From positions 1 to 24,628 of IMG/VR virus record IMGVR_UViG_3300011445_000061: a stretch of DNA of 24,628 nucleotides, one strand, 5' to 3'. Within the stretch, counting starts at the first letter, position 1. Each line of letters starts with the position of its first letter. Below, in pieces: positions 3,463 through 10,247 of the stretch. The notes under the pieces were generated by a model. The model was given only the letters and a program-made list of their open reading frames with translations. It was not told the DNA's origin and made no database searches. A program made the translations under genes and the position numbers. This DNA comes from a virus.

Positions 3463-3490
3463 GGTCGTGCCTTTTCCTTTCCCGTTGTTG

Positions 3491-3514
3491 GGGGTGGGCG
3501 CAAATGCCCACCCC
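3491..3514 (+). terminator. Intergenic hairpin (attenuator or RNA-processing structure)
   Basis: Stem GGGGTGGGC (3491-3499) pairs perfectly with GCCCACCCC (3506-3514), loop GCAAAT. It is followed by GCCTTTAGG rather than a T-run. It ends 7 bases before the AGGGGG ribosome site of the polymerase gene. It may cut transcription or protect mRNA ends between the abundant ssDNA-binding candidate and the polymerase. Confidence 0.5.
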
Positions 3515-3530
3515 GCCTTTAGGGGGCTAA

Positions 3531-5321
3531 ATGAAACAAATAATTGATCCAGTGCGCGCTCTGGTTATGGTCAGAGATTCGCATGTCATTGCCTATGATA
3601 CCGAAACTACCGGGATTACGGTGAAGGACAAGATTTGTGGTTATGTCATCACCGATGCCACACATTCAATCTATGTGCCGGTTCGCCACGAGGCTGGCGG
3701 CAACATACCGAATGGGGAGGAGTTCGAACATGAATTGGCAAAGGCTTTTGCTGATCGTAGCCGATTGGGTCGTCGAACTGTGGGCCACAATATCGGGTTT
3801 GATCTGCGCATTTCTCTTCGTCACGGCATTGTTCTTGGCGCTCCGCTAGAAGACACGATGATCAATGAGGCGATCATTAGCGATATTACCCAGGGTTACG
3901 GATTGGACGATTGCTCTGCCCGACGCGGGGTTACGGCGAAAAAAGGGTCAGAGGTATATGCCGAAATTGCGCGCCGGTTCGGTGGATTGCCCGACCGCAA
4001 ACAGATGAAGTTCTTTTGGCGGTTGGAGGGGGATCACCCTCTCGTCGTTGATTACGCAACAGGCGACGGCATATCCACCTATCAGTTATGGATTGTGCAG
4101 CAGGCAATCCTGGATAATGACGACCTGCGCAAACCGTGGAAGCTAGAGTGCGATTTGCTGCCTTATGTGGCGCGGATGCACAACCGGGGGTTGAAGATCA
4201 ATCCCGAATACTCGGGGAGGATAATCGGCGATGTTACAGCAGCTATCCAAGAGGCTAGCAAGGTATTTGTTCCGGGCTTTAACGTTCGGTCGCCCAAAGC
4301 GGTGGAGGCCCTCTATCGAGCTAACGGATTCGCAGAAGAAAAGTTCGCCCGTACGGACAACGGTGCTGTATCATTCACCGAAAAATGGCTCGAGACAAAC
4401 GATATTGGGCACGCAATATTATCGGTACGACGTCTAGAGAAGGCGCGCGACTCATTTATCACCCCGCTGATCGACACCCACAATGTCAACGGGCGGGTTC
4501 ACCCTATCCTCAACCAGTCCAAGTCGGACGATTATGGAGTTGCCGGTGTCAGATTCTCCTGTTCAGAGCCGAATTTACAAGCTTTCCCCAAAAGAAACAT
4601 CGAAGTTGGTAGAGTTGTTAGAAAGCTTGTCGTCCCGGATGACGGATTTGTCATTGAAGAAGCTGACGCTAAACAACAAGAACCCAGATTATTTACCCAC
4701 TATTCAGGCGACCCGGCACTTGTTGACGGGTACCGAAGTGGTACGATGGACATTCACGACCGCGCATCCGCCCTCCTCAACTTAGACCGCGATACCGCCA
4801 AGAGGATGGCAATGGGGATGCTAACAATGATGAGTCCCCCCACGCTTGCGGGACACATGCGATGGGACATCGAACGGGCACGGTCTGCCCACCGGACATT
4901 TCTGACGGACGCGTTCCCCCATATCAAGGTATTTCAGGATACTGCCGTCCAGGTGTTCAAGCGGAGGGGATATGTCAAGACTCTTCTCGGGCGACGGGCT
5001 TACTGTGATGACCCGCGATTTGCCTACCGCGCCGTATCCCGGATTATTCAAAATGTTGGAGGAGAGCATATTAAAATGTGTCTCCTTCGCGCATGTCAAT
5101 ACGAAGACGCGCATCCAAATGACGTACAGATGCTACTTACTATCCACGACAGTCTATTATGGCAGCGTAATCCTGCCCACGACCCGACGGAGCTTATTAG
5201 GATCGTCGAAAATGTGGGCAATGAGTTAGGGGTATCCGTTCCCCTCCCATTTGGCCTTGGCAGCGGCCCCGATTGGGCTAAGGCAAGCTATGGCGACAAG
5301 CTGGACAAATATGAGGAATAG
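3531..5321 (+). CDS. dpoZ: Family A DNA polymerase with 3'-5' exonuclease, DpoZ-like
   Basis: 596 aa, AGGGGG ribosome site. The exonuclease motifs are complete: D23-x-E25 (YDTETTG), N87/D91 (GHNIGFD) and Y175-xxx-D179. In the polymerase domain, motif A is D379-xxxx-E384-x-R386, keeping the catalytic Asp. The O-helix is R420-xxx-K424-xxx-M428-G429-xx-T432, where most PolA enzymes have Phe or Tyr and then Tyr. The Q-helix has TLLGRR (484-489), Q507 is kept, and motif C is H539-D540-S541 instead of HDE. All catalytic aspartates are therefore present in an unusual active-site frame. Together with purZ and mazZ downstream this fits DpoZ, the polymerase of 2-aminoadenine phages. The PolA call is firm; the DpoZ name rests on context and divergence. 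Confidence 0.88.
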   Translation: MKQIIDPVRALVMVRDSHVIAYDTETTGITVKDKICGYVITDATHSIYVPVRHEAGGNIPNGEEFEHELAKAFADRSRLGRRTVGHNIGFDLRISLRHGIVLGAPLEDTMINEAIISDITQGYGLDDCSARRGVTAKKGSEVYAEIARRFGGLPDRKQMKFFWRLEGDHPLVVDYATGDGISTYQLWIVQQAILDNDDLRKPWKLECDLLPYVARMHNRGLKINPEYSGRIIGDVTAAIQEASKVFVPGFNVRSPKAVEALYRANGFAEEKFARTDNGAVSFTEKWLETNDIGHAILSVRRLEKARDSFITPLIDTHNVNGRVHPILNQSKSDDYGVAGVRFSCSEPNLQAFPKRNIEVGRVVRKLVVPDDGFVIEEADAKQQEPRLFTHYSGDPALVDGYRSGTMDIHDRASALLNLDRDTAKRMAMGMLTMMSPPTLAGHMRWDIERARSAHRTFLTDAFPHIKVFQDTAVQVFKRRGYVKTLLGRRAYCDDPRFAYRAVSRIIQNVGGEHIKMCLLRACQYEDAHPNDVQMLLTIHDSLLWQRNPAHDPTELIRIVENVGNELGVSVPLPFGLGSGPDWAKASYGDKLDKYEE

Positions 5322-5323
5322 AA

Positions 5324-5539
5324 ATGCCTTACCGCCCCGGCGATCCGACTTACAAGTTCGAAGCCAAAATCGAAGTAACCACGGCGAAAGCGTACTTATT
5401 GCACCCAACTATGGGCGTAAAGCAAGAAGTGTGGTGCCCCAAATCGCAGGTGGTCGGAATGACCGAGCCTGATGAGAACGGCAACCGCATACTAGAAGTA
5501 ACCGAATGGTGGTGGCAGAAGGCAGACATGGATGAGTGA
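5324..5539 (+). CDS. Small conserved phage protein, 71 aa
   Basis: It starts 2 bases after the polymerase stop with GAGGAAT inside the polymerase end as ribosome site. It begins MPYRPGDPTYKFEAKIEV and contains AYLL..MGVKQEVWCPKSQV and a Trp-rich end (TEWWWQKADMDE). The pattern, a small beta-rich domain with a V-W-x-P-K-S-Q core, is seen in short proteins of many phage replication modules. No function is known to me. It overlaps the next gene by 8 bases, so translation is probably coupled to the nuclease. Confidence 0.7.
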   Translation: MPYRPGDPTYKFEAKIEVTTAKAYLLHPTMGVKQEVWCPKSQVVGMTEPDENGNRILEVTEWWWQKADMDE

Positions 5540-5921
5540 GTCAGACGTTAAACGCGGCATGGTGAAGTCCGTAATGGAAATGGGTGGATATGCTCGCCGT
5601 ATCGAGGACCAATATGGGGTAGGAATATTTGACACACTCTTTATCCCCATCGGCCTGCCGGTGTTCACGGCGGAGGTTAAGATGGTTAAGGACTACGCCT
5701 TTGGCCCCACCGTAAGGCAGCTGCTCGAATTGGAGCGCGTAAAGGTGGCGGCGCACAAGTCGGGCCATGTTATCCCCCTCATGATTGGCTTTAAGCAGGG
5801 GGTGTATTACTTCCACGAGCCTAAAGCAGTAATTGATTGCCGAGAGTGCTTCTCGGTCACGTCGATTAAAATGTCGTTCCACGACCAACTAGTTCAATAC
5901 TACCACTCAAGGAGGAAATGA
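5532..5921 (+). CDS. VRR-NUC-family PD-(D/E)xK nuclease
   Basis: 129 aa. Catalytic pattern of the VRR-NUC fold: D34 in GIFDTLFI, E48-V-K50 in FTAEVKMV, and Q63 in the following helix (VRQLLELERV). A C-terminal strand-rich part with GHVIPLMIGF completes the fold. Stand-alone phage VRR-NUC proteins are small structure-specific nucleases, often placed with SNF2 helicases as here, and act in replication-fork or recombination-intermediate processing. Its start lies within the preceding gene and its stop overlaps the next start (ATGA), so it is co-translated with both. Family confidence is high; the substrate is unknown. Confidence 0.85.
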   Translation: MSESDVKRGMVKSVMEMGGYARRIEDQYGVGIFDTLFIPIGLPVFTAEVKMVKDYAFGPTVRQLLELERVKVAAHKSGHVIPLMIGFKQGVYYFHEPKAVIDCRECFSVTSIKMSFHDQLVQYYHSRRK

Positions 5922-6268
5922 TGGCTAAGAAGATGAAGAAAATAGACAGGTTCGATATCTCCGAAGAGACACACCAAGGGGACGTAGCCGAGAAGGTACT
6001 CACCGGAGCCTTGGACCAAGTTAAGTCCAAGAGCAAGGAACACGGCGACACCACCAACTCGTTCCAGATGATGGGCGAATTCTGGACGACGTACGTTCGC
6101 CATACCTCGGTTGCGCGAGCGCACCTTGCCATCCAAGCCAAAGACGTGGCCCAAATGATGGTCCTCTTGAAGATTGCCCGCACGGCTTACGGCAAATCCG
6201 GCGACAACCACGTGGACGAGGCTGGTTACGCCGCTCTCGCTGCCTTGCTCGATCCCCCCAAGGAGTAA
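5918..6268 (+). CDS. DUF6378-like phage protein
   Basis: 116 aa with a strong AAGGAGG ribosome site. Two ATGs lie in tandem at 5918 and 5921; the first overlaps the stop of the nuclease gene, so either could be used. Recognisable blocks are HGDTTNSF (42-49), FWTTY (55-59), AKDVAQMMVLLKIAR (74-88) and DNHVDEAGYAALA (96-108), as in the DUF6378 family found across many phages. It is predicted all-helical with conserved acidic residues near the end, somewhat recalling small all-alpha nucleotide pyrophosphohydrolases, but this similarity is my impression only. It ends 2 bases before purZ and probably shares its translation. Confidence 0.8.
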   Translation: MMAKKMKKIDRFDISEETHQGDVAEKVLTGALDQVKSKSKEHGDTTNSFQMMGEFWTTYVRHTSVARAHLAIQAKDVAQMMVLLKIARTAYGKSGDNHVDEAGYAALAALLDPPKE

Positions 6269-6270
6269 CC

Positions 6271-7338
6271 ATGGAATTGTTCAAAGGTACAGGCGTTCAT
6301 TGCGTGGTGGACGGCCAGTTCGGATCGACGGGCAAGGGGGCACTATCCGCCTACCTCGCGCAGCAAGCCTACGAGCAGGGCAAGGCTATCAATTTCGCTG
6401 GCTCCATTTACAGCGGAGGGCCGAATAGTGGACATACTTGCTACTTCGAAGGGAGAAAGATAGTCCTCAAGCAATTGCCCACATTCGCCGTGTACCTATC
6501 TATGCTTGGGGTTCGGAGCGCCGTCTACTTATCGGCTGGGGCGGTTATTGATCGGGAAATCCTGTACAGAGAATCCGGTCAATTCCCCGATGTGCGGGTA
6601 TTTGTGCACCCCAACGCCGCTATCGTAACCGACGAAGACCGCCGCGCGGAAGAGGGGGGTACCATCGCCCAAGTGGCGGGCACTAGAAGTGGTACCGGGG
6701 CTGCTCTAGCTAGGAAAATACACCGAGAACCCATGGCCATCGCTCGAGAATCGTTGGGAACGCTTGGTCGCAACGTAGTGATACAGAACCACCGCATCAA
6801 ACCCGAGCAGAACGCCTATTTTATGGAGGTCGCGCAGGGGTTTAGCTTGGGGATCAACTCCCATTTCTACCCCAAAGTAACCAGCCGCGAATGCACCGTG
6901 ATGCAAGGTTTGGCTGACGCCAGAATCCCGCCCCGGATGCTTGCCAAAACTTACATGGCGATCCGAACCTACCCAATTCGGGTTGGCGACGTGGACGGAC
7001 ATTCCAGCGGCGAATGGTACAGCGACCAGAACGAGACTAGCTGGGAGGAATTGGGGCTGCCCCCGGAGCTTACAACGGTTACACAACGAGTGCGGCGTGT
7101 CGCAACATTCTCGATAGACCAGTTCTTCGAGGCATGCGCGGCGAACGACCCAGACGTGGTATTCATATCGCACATGGATTACCTAGACGAAGTATCCCAA
7201 CAGTACCTGCTATCGGACCTCCACGGCGCAATGGAAGCCATGGGCAAACAGTTTGATTTCCTACTTGGCTACGGACCCCACGTAAAGGACATAAAGGAGC
7301 GTAGACGTGCCAACCAACATCCTCGTCCAAGTGCCTGA
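6271..7338 (+). CDS. purZ: PurZ, N6-succino-2-amino-2'-deoxyadenylate synthetase
   Basis: 355 aa, an adenylosuccinate-synthetase relative but shorter than bacterial PurA (about 430 aa), as usual for phage PurZ. The P-loop is G18-S-T-G-K-G23. PurA has GDEGKG, so the PurA catalytic Asp is Ser19 here, the substitution expected for an enzyme using dGMP rather than IMP. The catalytic His is kept (N52-S-G-H55-T). Also visible are the GTRSGTGAA loop, KTYMAIRTYPIRVG, an Arg-rich aspartate-binding loop (TTVTQRVRRVATFS, about 267-280), the base-binding SHMDYLD and a final GYGPHV. It condenses dGMP with aspartate to make the precursor of dZMP, later processed by host PurB and kinases. AAGGAG lies before the start; it overlaps the next gene by 32 bases. 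Confidence 0.92.
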   Translation: MELFKGTGVHCVVDGQFGSTGKGALSAYLAQQAYEQGKAINFAGSIYSGGPNSGHTCYFEGRKIVLKQLPTFAVYLSMLGVRSAVYLSAGAVIDREILYRESGQFPDVRVFVHPNAAIVTDEDRRAEEGGTIAQVAGTRSGTGAALARKIHREPMAIARESLGTLGRNVVIQNHRIKPEQNAYFMEVAQGFSLGINSHFYPKVTSRECTVMQGLADARIPPRMLAKTYMAIRTYPIRVGDVDGHSSGEWYSDQNETSWEELGLPPELTTVTQRVRRVATFSIDQFFEACAANDPDVVFISHMDYLDEVSQQYLLSDLHGAMEAMGKQFDFLLGYGPHVKDIKERRRANQHPRPSA

Positions 7339-7630
7339 TTCGCTGAGGGAATACCACGACAAACTGCTAGATTTCTTTAACGGTATGATAAAGAAGCTGG
7401 ATAAAAACTGTCACAAGGATACCCCCTCGATCCAGGACATGGGGCGAATAATAGACCTCCTTCAAATGGAAGTTCAGGAATTCGAGGAACAGTTGGTCAC
7501 CAATAAATATGACGAAAACTCGCTAATCGAACTGATGGACACCGCAAATTTCGCTTTTCTAGCCTATGTCGCGTTAAGACTGCAAGGAGTGGAGCATGCC
7601 AAAGAGGCGGGTAATCCTAAACCTCGATGA
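7307..7630 (+). CDS. mazZ: MazZ-like (MazG-family) nucleotide pyrophosphohydrolase
   Basis: 107 aa starting at GTG, 8 bases after AAGGAG that lies inside purZ. It carries the all-alpha NTP pyrophosphohydrolase signature: E55-xx-E58, 16 residues, E75-xx-D78 (ELMD), then N81, the Mg-binding residues of the MazG family. In Z-genome phages the MazZ enzyme cuts (d)GTP to dGMP, the substrate of PurZ, and the tight overlap with purZ fits that role. Fold confidence is high. The dGTP specificity is inferred from context, since other MazG-like phage enzymes look alike at this level. Confidence 0.82.
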   Translation: MPTNILVQVPDSLREYHDKLLDFFNGMIKKLDKNCHKDTPSIQDMGRIIDLLQMEVQEFEEQLVTNKYDENSLIELMDTANFAFLAYVALRLQGVEHAKEAGNPKPR

Positions 7631-7760
7631 GGAAGACTGCAAGTGGCTGGAGGAAGTATACGGGGATAGTTGGACTAAGCGAATGGAACAGCACATCCAC
7701 AATGAGGTAAGGCTTCGCAGCCAAGACGCGCTTAAAATGAGGGAACCATGGAATTACTGA
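7596..7760 (+). CDS. Small basic/acidic protein of unknown function, 54 aa
   Basis: ATG at 7596 with AAGGAG nine bases upstream, inside mazZ; ends TGA at 7760, overlapping the helicase start at 7748. It begins MPKRRVILNL and ends MREPWNY, with a probable charged helix (residues 11-50). The good ribosome site and overlaps on both sides argue for a real gene despite its size. Product unknown; the basic start and ribbon-like RRVILNL could suggest DNA or protein binding, but this is weak. Confidence 0.65.
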   Translation: MPKRRVILNLDEEDCKWLEEVYGDSWTKRMEQHIHNEVRLRSQDALKMREPWNY

Positions 7761-9160
7761 GCGTCCAGAAAGCTGCACTAAACGCGGCTAATACCGCACC
7801 CGGATTCGCCTATTACATGGAAATGGGCCTCGGCAAGACATTAGTAGCTCTCACCGAATTCTGTCATTTAGTTAGCAAGGGCAAGGCTACCCGGATGGTG
7901 GTTATCTGCCCCAATAGCTTCAAGAGCGGTTGGCAAGACGAGATTAATAAACAGGGGGTTCAAGTCCACCCCTTCGTTTTCAATTCCGGTTCCGCATATG
8001 AGAACGACCGCTTCTTGAAGACTGATTACAAGTTGCCGCCCGTGCTTATTGTGAACTACGAGGCGATACGAATACCGCACGTCCGCGAATACATTGACAA
8101 GTTCATCAGCGGTAAAAATTGCGTGTTGACGATAGACGAATCCATCCAGATTAAGACCTACAACGTTATCCAAACCAAAGTAGTGCTTGGGATGGCCCCT
8201 AAGTTTCAGTATGTTCGCCTGCTATCTGGAAAGCCGGTAACGAGCGGCCCCCACGACCTTTGGGCGCAGATGCGAGCAATCGGTGCCATAAATACCAAAT
8301 ACCATCCCTTCAAGACTACATATTGCAAGATGGGTGGGTTTAGAGGTAAGAAGGTGGTCGGCACTCAAAATGAGGAATTGCTCGCCGCGCTGATCGACAA
8401 GTTCATCTTCCGAGCCTCCAAGAAGGATTGGACGGACCTCCCCGAGAAGATGTACACTTCGCGGGAGTACAAGCTAACGCCGGAACTGTTGTCTATGTAT
8501 AAAAGCATGGAGGACGAGTTCGTTCTATGGATAAACGAAACCGAGAACGTCGCCGTGGACGCCTTTATAACGAAGTATATCAAGCTTGCCCAAATTCAAT
8601 CCGGATTCATTATCAAGGAAGATGGGTCTACCGAGGAATTAATATCGCCGGAAAAGAATCCACGGTTCGTATTGGTGCGCGAACTTGTAGAGGAAGCAGA
8701 CGGTAAGGTAATAATACCGTACATTCACAGGTACACTCTCGGTTTGCTGCAGCGGAGCCTGGCTGAATACAACCCCGCGCACATTAAAGGGTTAATGGAG
8801 CCGCACGAGATTAAAGCCCAAGTGGATAAGTTTAACAAGGATCCGAATTGCCGCGTTCTGCTGGGTCAGACACGCGCGTCGAAATACGGACATACCTTAT
8901 TGGGCGGGGAAGATATAGATCATTGTTCTACTATGATATTCGCCGAGAACAGCTACTCCTTGGACGACCGCAGCCAAGTGGAAGACCGAATGCACCGACA
9001 CGGCCAGAAATTCAACTGCTTATACGTGGACGTTTGGGGTACCCCATTGGACCGCAGAGTAACAGCGGCGCTGCAAGCCAAAGAGGACATATCCCAAGCG
9101 GTGTTTCAATACTTTAAGAAGCGGTCTAATAACCCTGCTCTTCTTCCAGTTGGTTCATAA
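7748..9160 (+). CDS. SNF2-type superfamily 2 DNA helicase
   Basis: 470 aa. Motif I is MGLGKT (26-31), with VVICPNSFKSGWQDE (51-65) as the Ia region. Motif II is D130-E-S-I instead of DEAH/DEAQ. Motif III is S160-G-K-P instead of SGTP. The C-terminal RecA domain ends in motif VI QVEDRMHRHGQ (from residue 410), the SNF2 type Q..R..R.GQ. These phage proteins are DNA translocases working with VRR-NUC and polymerase in replication or recombination. It closes the replication operon. Its last 35 bases overlap the end of the convergent virion gene, and no hairpin terminator is seen between them. Confidence 0.88.
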   Translation: MELLSVQKAALNAANTAPGFAYYMEMGLGKTLVALTEFCHLVSKGKATRMVVICPNSFKSGWQDEINKQGVQVHPFVFNSGSAYENDRFLKTDYKLPPVLIVNYEAIRIPHVREYIDKFISGKNCVLTIDESIQIKTYNVIQTKVVLGMAPKFQYVRLLSGKPVTSGPHDLWAQMRAIGAINTKYHPFKTTYCKMGGFRGKKVVGTQNEELLAALIDKFIFRASKKDWTDLPEKMYTSREYKLTPELLSMYKSMEDEFVLWINETENVAVDAFITKYIKLAQIQSGFIIKEDGSTEELISPEKNPRFVLVRELVEEADGKVIIPYIHRYTLGLLQRSLAEYNPAHIKGLMEPHEIKAQVDKFNKDPNCRVLLGQTRASKYGHTLLGGEDIDHCSTMIFAENSYSLDDRSQVEDRMHRHGQKFNCLYVDVWGTPLDRRVTAALQAKEDISQAVFQYFKKRSNNPALLPVGS

Positions 9161-10247
9161 TAGCTCTACGAGCAGCACTCCCAACTCTGTTTGTGCCTTC
9201 CGGACTCAATATTCCCTTATACTTGGGGTGGTTAAGCAACATGCGGCGCAACTCTTCAGTCGATGCCTGGGTTCCCCCTTTTGAGGCGGCATTAGCGATG
9301 CCACCAATAGCGGGGAGGCCAACTGCGGATATTAACGCCGGTATTACGTTTCCGCCCATCCCCAATGTTATGCTAGAAGGCAAGGACGCCACGTTTGCGG
9401 CGTTCCCCAACCATTTCGCTCCTTTGGTAGCCGGATCGCCGTGGATAACTTCTTGCATCTTAGCCTGGACCTCGGGCTTCTTAGTAAACGCTTTATTACC
9501 GGCGATGTCCGCAATAGCTGATTGAAGTTGGCGCTGAGTTCCGCCACCGGGGGTCGCTTCGACGCCAGCGACAGCCCTCTCCACTTGCCCGGATGGTGTT
9601 ATAGCCCTAGCTCTTGGGCTTGCGGGCGGAAGGGTATCGTCTATTCCGGACCACCATTTGGCCGCCCTGTTGCCAACCCCCGACATCGCGTGAGAAATCC
9701 CGGTACCAGCGCCTCCCGCAAGCGCACCAACACCTGCTCCACCAGGAATGGATTCGCCGCGAGAAGCAGCCGAAATAGCGCCCTCAGCAGCACCTTGGAC
9801 ACCACCCGCGAGAAGACCAATAGCACCCCGCGCTATCTTACCACCACCCAATTTAAGTCCTTGTGTGGCCAAATTAAACTTCCCAGGGCCAACTAAACCG
9901 CCCGCGATGTCTGCTGGGATAGCCCCTAAACCCAACCGCTCTCTGGCAGCAGTTACATCTTGCGCTGCGGTGGCTCCACCCGGAGGAGGAACGCCCAATT
10001 TTTCGCCAGCCCAATCAGCCGCAGCCGGAAGTGTGCTTAGAGTAGCGGCATCTAAAAATGTTTTGCCTACGTCTTCGCCCGTCCTGAAAGGCTTTGCCCA
10101 CATCGGCTCTGCATCGCGGACAGCTTGTTGCTTAGTATTTACTTCTTGCTGTGCCGTATCCTTCGCTTCCTTAAAGGCTTCGTCATAACTATTCGCTTCG
10201 ACTTTATACTTCGCCCCGCCTGGGAGAGTAATAATAAATTCGCCCAT
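9126..10247 (-). CDS. Glycine-rich hydrophobic virion protein, probable ejection protein
   Basis: 373 aa, last gene of the leftward operon; its ATG overlaps the upstream stop (TAATG). A small N-terminal strand-rich segment (ITLPGGAKYKVEANSYDEAF, residues 6-25) is followed by two long Gly/Ala-rich hydrophobic stretches (about 138-192 and 290-330) that look membrane-active, like glycine-zipper regions. Next to a transglycosylase and a large coiled-coil virion protein, this fits an internal protein that enters the cell envelope during DNA ejection. No catalytic motif is visible. The role is inferred from composition and neighbours. Confidence 0.65.
   Translation of the reverse strand: MGEFIITLPGGAKYKVEANSYDEAFKEAKDTAQQEVNTKQQAVRDAEPMWAKPFRTGEDVGKTFLDAATLSTLPAAADWAGEKLGVPPPGGATAAQDVTAARERLGLGAIPADIAGGLVGPGKFNLATQGLKLGGGKIARGAIGLLAGGVQGAAEGAISAASRGESIPGGAGVGALAGGAGTGISHAMSGVGNRAAKWWSGIDDTLPPASPRARAITPSGQVERAVAGVEATPGGGTQRQLQSAIADIAGNKAFTKKPEVQAKMQEVIHGDPATKGAKWLGNAANVASLPSSITLGMGGNVIPALISAVGLPAIGGIANAASKGGTQASTEELRRMLLNHPKYKGILSPEGTNRVGSAARRAIMNQLEEEQGY

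Follow-up and report, generated by a model that had tools for sequence, protein, structure and literature searches.

A probable reduced 2-aminoadenine pathway in a tailed phage related to Ochrobactrum phage vB_OspP_OH

It is not settled how phages that use 2-aminoadenine (Z) exclude adenine from their DNA, and the locus described here bears on that question. IMG/VR virus record IMGVR_UViG_3300011445_000061, a stretch of 24,628 bases whose ends are not closed (hereafter the window), encodes relatives of PurZ and MazZ-2 and a family A DNA polymerase (PolA); DatZ was not found in the window, either with PF12917 or with a DatZ profile, filters being switched off. Can such a set of genes make Z-DNA? 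We consider it likely that the window holds a reduced Z pathway, in a tailed phage related to Ochrobactrum phage vB_OspP_OH (hereafter OH; NC_070933). The pathway is well supported, though not by chemistry, because its 355-amino-acid (aa) protein falls within the tree of phage PurZ and the neighbouring protein matches MazZ-2. Gene order, phylogeny, residues and the absence of DatZ were read from the sequences compared here, and every enzyme activity named below is carried over from characterised homologues. The genes in question are the following.

3531 to 5321, plus strand: family A DNA polymerase with 3'-5' exonuclease, 596 aa, PurZ-linked (Pfam, PHROG, NCBIfam and PDB matches; tree; residues)
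6271 to 7338, plus strand: purZ, predicted 2-amino-adenylosuccinate synthetase, 355 aa, with DGQFGSTGKG (profiles, PDB match, tree, motif)
7307 to 7630, plus strand: mazZ-2-like gene, predicted dGTP pyrophosphohydrolase, 107 aa, GTG start (profile, acidic residues, predicted fold, start region)
7596 to 7760, plus strand: conserved 54-aa protein, in the position that datZ has in relatives (ribosome-binding site aaggag; locus counts; ratio of nonsynonymous to synonymous substitution, dN/dS)

The 355-aa protein matches Pfam PF00709 (E=1.6e-21) and PHROG 1211 (E=1e-56), and its best match in the PDB is the PurZ of phiVC8 (6fm1, E=8e-47). The original prediction had proposed phylogeny as a check on this protein. 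In a tree of 87 proteins, including phage PurZ, E. coli PurA, PurZ0 and short cellular relatives, it lies inside the phage PurZ clade (63 rows; Shimodaira-Hasegawa approximate likelihood ratio test, SH-aLRT, 99) and apart from PurA, PurZ0 and the cellular relatives. The clade consists of two halves, one with phiVC8, S-2L and SH-Ab 15497, the other with OH, the window and many uncultured viruses. The nucleotide-binding motif is identical to that of characterised PurZ, and the P-loop, DGQFGSTGKG, has Ser at the position of the catalytic Asp; GSTGKG is present in 12 of the 12 PurZ proteins compared, phiVC8, S-2L and SH-Ab 15497 among them. That Ser had been offered as a mark of PurZ, but dozens of cellular relatives with GGQ[FY]GSEGKG share it, so it is not diagnostic and we rejected it as proof; the phage form DxQ[FYW]GSTGKG appears more telling than the Ser alone. 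The window protein scores 228 bits with a PurZ model versus 130 with a short PurA model, a preference of about 100 bits, and a cellular relative shows the reverse preference (247 versus 276 bits).

The protein might instead be an ordinary adenylosuccinate synthetase that raises the host's purine supply, in a phage whose DNA contains no Z. The PurA fold, the Ser shared with cellular short PurA-like proteins and a score under the PurZ cut-off would all agree with this. We nevertheless find it highly improbable, given the placement inside phage PurZ, a GSTGKG motif like that of every PurZ compared, the adjoining mazZ-2 and, across nearly all relatives, an unusual polymerase linked to PurZ. The protein is PurZ by descent, and ligation of dGMP with aspartate is its predicted activity.

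Other loci show the range of this family. Short PurA-like proteins with GGQ[FY]GSEGKG, and so with Ser and not Asp, occur in many bacteria and archaea (L107-L182). In a DatZ-less subgroup (L050, L051, L056, L058, L060, L062) GSTGKG in the P-loop of PurZ has given way to GSEGKG, GSSGKG or GSCGKG, and the substrate may have changed. PurZ, DatZ and an adjoining PolA also occur on three contigs binned as bacterial genomes (L105, L106, L126; MazZ match in L126 and L106), which are probably phage sequence in metagenome-assembled genomes (MAGs).

The 107-aa gene overlaps purZ by 32 nucleotides and has AAGGAG upstream of its GTG start. Its product matches nothing in Pfam, PHROG or NCBIfam, and tblastn against 50,697 phage records gave no match. 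It was nonetheless recognised, as the sole match in the window, by a MazZ-2 profile from which it had been left out, at E=4.7e-5 when the profile was made from four named phages and at E=1e-10 when outer relatives were added. Four acidic residues (E55xxE58, E75xxD78) are invariant in the alignment, in which there is no invariant C-terminal Arg as counterpart of Arg83 of S-2L. The predicted model (predicted local distance difference test, pLDDT, 87) has a MazG-type fold, and its best PDB neighbours are AF_0060 (2p06) and a MazG-related protein (2yxh), with weak E-values. Profile and model together suggest that the gene is probably MazZ-2. Six relatives (L039, L042, L215-L218) show the opposite loss to that of the window: DatZ is present, and no MazZ-2 could be recognised.

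The three genes described in the original prediction, a PolA with exonuclease motifs, a PurA relative of 355 aa and a MazG-fold protein overlapping it, are thus present as described. In the pathway that we propose, MazZ-2 would convert dGTP to dGMP, PurZ would join dGMP to aspartate with ATP or dATP to give succino-dZMP, host PurB and kinases would complete dZTP, and the phage PolA would place Z opposite T. In a phage without DatZ, adenine would have to be excluded by the polymerase and its exonuclease, by PurZ's use of dATP and possibly by the 54-aa protein or some further factor. S-2L PurZ can take dATP as energy source (PMC8342488), and such use would itself consume dATP.

What, then, does the absence of DatZ mean? 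The Z-cluster has been defined as datZ, mazZ and purZ, and it is this trio that is established for complete replacement (PMC8342488); the original prediction had given that standing to polymerase, PurZ and MazZ, and datZ is missing here. DatZ occurs in all well-studied phages of this kind; phiVC8, S-2L, PMBT28, SH-Ab 15497, ZP6 and others carry datZ after purZ and mazZ, and relatives of the window that have DatZ carry it between purZ/mazZ and the helicase gene. Where this slot is visible in relatives it holds DatZ, a member of the 54-aa family or neither. After removal of near-duplicates there were 79 distinct loci: 44 with DatZ, 24 with the 54-aa gene (the window and 23 others), 11 with neither and none with both. 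Among full-size relatives (42-45 kb; IMG/VR 'linear', completeness being judged from length), genome-wide search found DatZ in none of the 12 whose slot lacks it, which have either the 54-aa gene (L022, L024, L028, L029, L033, L235) or neither (L048, L056, L058, L062, L064, L246), and detected it at E<1e-60 in all the DatZ-slot genomes tested. One further genome, L076, was also negative, but its slot lies off the contig. On the PurZ tree the presence of DatZ changes about eight times, and one clade of 29 has the two slot states interspersed.

The window, at 24.6 kb, is a fragment of what is probably a genome near 42-45 kb, and DatZ could in principle sit in the unseen part, making the set an ordinary one. 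This too is highly improbable, for the full-size relatives with a visible DatZ-less slot have DatZ nowhere else, and the usual place of DatZ is occupied here by the 54-aa gene that excludes it.

Does another gene do the work of DatZ? No DutZ-like open reading frame (ORF) was matched in the window. When ORFs conserved across the full-size genomes were compared, the 54-aa gene was the only credible window gene tied to DatZ-less genomes and absent from DatZ-bearing ones; the few other ORF matches with this distribution were set aside, as we take them to be shadow ORFs that run across real genes in a different frame, and a replacement for DatZ elsewhere in the window was rejected on the same comparison. 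The 54-aa gene has a dN/dS of about 0.1-0.3 in six usable pairs, and its product matches no Pfam or PHROG family. We put forward as a hypothesis that it replaces the function of DatZ, the null being that it merely occupies a variable slot. Since DatZ is missing in the window and in many relatives, complete replacement of A by Z is not a safe prediction. Of the original prediction, the Z pathway is upheld by the PurZ tree and the MazZ-2 match, and full replacement of A by Z is not, as it was worded.

Another candidate for excluding adenine is the polymerase. It matches Pfam DNA_pol_A (E=1.5e-41) and DNA_pol_A_exo1 (E=1.4e-6), keeps the acidic residues of the exonuclease and the HD dyad of the polymerase, and is 62% identical to the OH polymerase and less than 30% to phiVC8 DpoZ. 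Its equivalents of E. coli F762, Y766 and N845, which we take to be the L455, F459 and G548 positions of the DpoZ signature, are M428, T432 and S503. The phiVC8-like signature comprises insertions 2 and 3 together with L455, F459 and G548 (PMC8599892); the window polymerase lacks both insertions and has M, T and S at the three positions. With NCBIfam NF038380 it scores 239.6 bits, below the cut-off of 500, and ZP6 DpoZ scores 922.6. Phage 023Pt, which has no annotated purZ near its polymerase gene, has an enzyme that outscores it at 331.6 bits, and we therefore rejected the best-scoring profile as proof of DpoZ; to call the enzyme DpoZ-like, as had been done, was an overstatement. In a tree of 43 polymerases, the phiVC8-like DpoZ (nine rows) and the PurZ0 group form separate clades, with support of 100 each, and the window polymerase belongs to a third clade of 25 (support 99), outside both and not with the Archimedes and Theresita polymerases. 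A common group of this clade and the phiVC8-like one was not rejected (approximately unbiased test, AU, p 0.32), so a separate origin is not shown.

One residue stands out. The O-helix Tyr of ordinary PolA is Thr in the window and Phe in both known DpoZ clades, and it is the one position at which both of those clades also depart. The window's clade supplied about 150 polymerase ORFs, a count that takes in near-duplicates; nearly all of them have Thr or Ser at this position, and a few have Asn. Tyr is kept in 8 PolA of the same set that have no linked phage PurZ, and in 79 of 79 readable polymerases of PurZ-less background phages. At position 845, Asn also occurs in some PurZ-linked members of the clade, so that the absence of Tyr is the only change shared by every PurZ-linked phage polymerase seen. 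The linkage itself is close: in a newly fetched set of 69 loci whose polymerase is related, PurZ lies downstream in 63, five end before it, and one has no PurZ.

A rather unlikely alternative is that the polymerase is not specific for Z, which would enter through dZTP raised by PurZ and MazZ. The S-2L PrimPol, which does not discriminate, is a precedent (PMC8065100), the DpoZ signature is lacking here, and a close relative without purZ exists; however, S-2L has DatZ to remove dATP and the window does not, and the nucleotide-binding helix of the window polymerase is changed. More doubtful still is the idea that the lineage has a Z-selecting polymerase of a third kind, in which Thr or Ser takes the O-helix position held by Phe in the others, paired with a 54-aa protein doing the job of DatZ, for instance through reduced dATP or an effect on the polymerase or on some host enzyme.

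The purZ-less relative is L248 (IMGVR_UViG_3300047471_000079, 44.2 kb), whose polymerase (8001-9782) is 57% identical to that of the window. It retains the polymerase, gp29, gp30, DUF6378 and helicase genes, PurZ, MazZ and DatZ were not found in it, and its polymerase has Asn at the O-helix Tyr position and again at that of N845. A return to ordinary adenine DNA is possible; a search for further purZ-less relatives of this kind found none. On a deltaproteobacterial MAG contig (L123), a PolA with the residue set F/T/N adjoins a PurZ-like protein.

Several points weigh against a working Z pathway of the kind proposed. The PurZ score of 228 bits falls below the 300-bit cut-off of NCBIfam NF038379, as does that of OH PurZ (241), and below that of a cellular protein (247), although NF038379 is still the best-scoring model for the protein and its cut-off is a threshold for naming, not a biochemical criterion. 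A literature search found no published chemistry on phages of the half of the PurZ tree that holds OH and the window, and the paper on OH treats these genes by annotation alone. The polymerase does not carry the DpoZ signature, and the change in its O-helix goes back to a single event on the tree or to a few, so that the counts given above are not independent. Finally, omission of datZ or mazZ lowered Z incorporation in E. coli (PMC8342488), and a DatZ-less phage might by the same token make mixed A/Z DNA. Such partial replacement, in which dZTP is made and the DNA is a mixture for want of DatZ and a true DpoZ, is the strongest competing explanation, if the less probable one, and the position of the polymerase outside both DpoZ clades agrees with it. 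However, phiVC8 DpoZ selects Z in vitro without help from DatZ (PMC8599892), so a selective polymerase may suffice, and the occurrence of phages with and without DatZ in one clade suggests that DatZ is dispensable. As a matter of judgement, we think it very likely that Z is a real component of the phage DNA, and give near-complete replacement of A even or slightly better chances.

The first 9 kb or so of the window form a rightward replication module, in which primase/helicase and Pam3-like genes precede the polymerase; most of the remainder consists of virion genes on the opposite strand. Exactly three ORFs (71, 129 and 116 aa) separate the polymerase from purZ, confirming the spacing originally proposed. 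The other features of the module are as follows.

3489 to 3516, plus strand: GC-rich strong hairpin, terminator-like by form, between a Pam3-like gene and the polymerase gene (RNA fold)
5324 to 5539, plus strand: small conserved gene, 71 aa, counterpart of OH gp29 (PHROG 8389, E=1.5e-7; synteny)
5532 to 5921, plus strand: putative nuclease, 129 aa, counterpart of OH gp30 (PHROG 93 endonuclease, E=0.001; synteny)
5918 to 6268, plus strand: DUF6378 protein, 116 aa, PHROG label 'phosphofructokinase' (PF19905, E=2.9e-19; synteny with OH gp31)
7748 to 9160, plus strand: SNF2/DEAD-type helicase, 470 aa, after the cluster in relatives too (Pfam, PHROG 62; synteny)

The hairpin has a stem of 9 bp, and the 60-base segment containing it folds at -28.2 kcal/mol; promoter and terminator counts in the window were no better than in shuffles. 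The DUF6378 protein is all-helical (model pLDDT 81, no clear PDB match), and its PHROG label looks wrong. A role as a MazG-type dATPase was rejected on that model and on a profile comparison with MazZ (probability 0.6%); the protein occurs in DatZ-bearing relatives as well. Its gene lies upstream of purZ in the OH-like group, and in mycobacteriophages it adjoins NrdH-like glutaredoxin genes.

According to published work, most PurZ phages have DatZ together with MazZ-2 or DUF550, and there are two DpoZ groups, matching PurZ and PurZ0 (PMC12884076). Against the open-licence papers that we found, which are no proof of priority, a large uncultured DatZ-less lineage, a slot protein that excludes DatZ and a third polymerase residue type appear to be new. 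The close relatives form a natural series, with DatZ, with the 54-aa protein instead or with neither, plus one without PurZ, and a comparison among them would tell whether A is excluded by DatZ or by the polymerase. The loss of an otherwise invariant Tyr, common to three Z-linked polymerase lineages, singles out one residue. Should full replacement prove possible in the absence of DatZ, Z-DNA would need no more than two genes and a polymerase, which bears on synthetic genomes.

Among known systems, the PurZ0 phages (Gordonia phage Archimedes and Arthrobacter phage Wayne, with DutZ, DmtZ and a Wayne-like DpoZ) resemble the window in having no DatZ and in losing the same O-helix Tyr, to Phe; they differ in that PurZ0, their polymerases and DutZ are of other lineages, and no DutZ-like ORF occurs in the window. 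Cyanophage S-2L (purZ-mazZ-datZ) shares the overlap of purZ with mazZ and, we expect, the same PurZ chemistry, but has a MazZ-1, DatZ and a PrimPol in place of PolA. Vibriophage phiVC8 (PurZ, MazZ-2, DatZ, DpoZ) is closer, with a PurZ about 36% identical and of the same pocket motif, a MazZ of the same type and an exonuclease-bearing PolA; the window differs from it in lacking DatZ, insertions 2 and 3 and the L455/F459/G548 signature. Closest is OH, which has the same order of genes (pol-gp29-gp30-DUF6378-purZ-mazZ), a PurZ and a polymerase 54% and 62% identical to those of the window, and a MazZ likewise of the MazZ-2 type (PMC8342488). In OH, purZ and mazZ are followed by gp34, datZ (gp35) and the helicase gene, and the window has the 54-aa gene instead.

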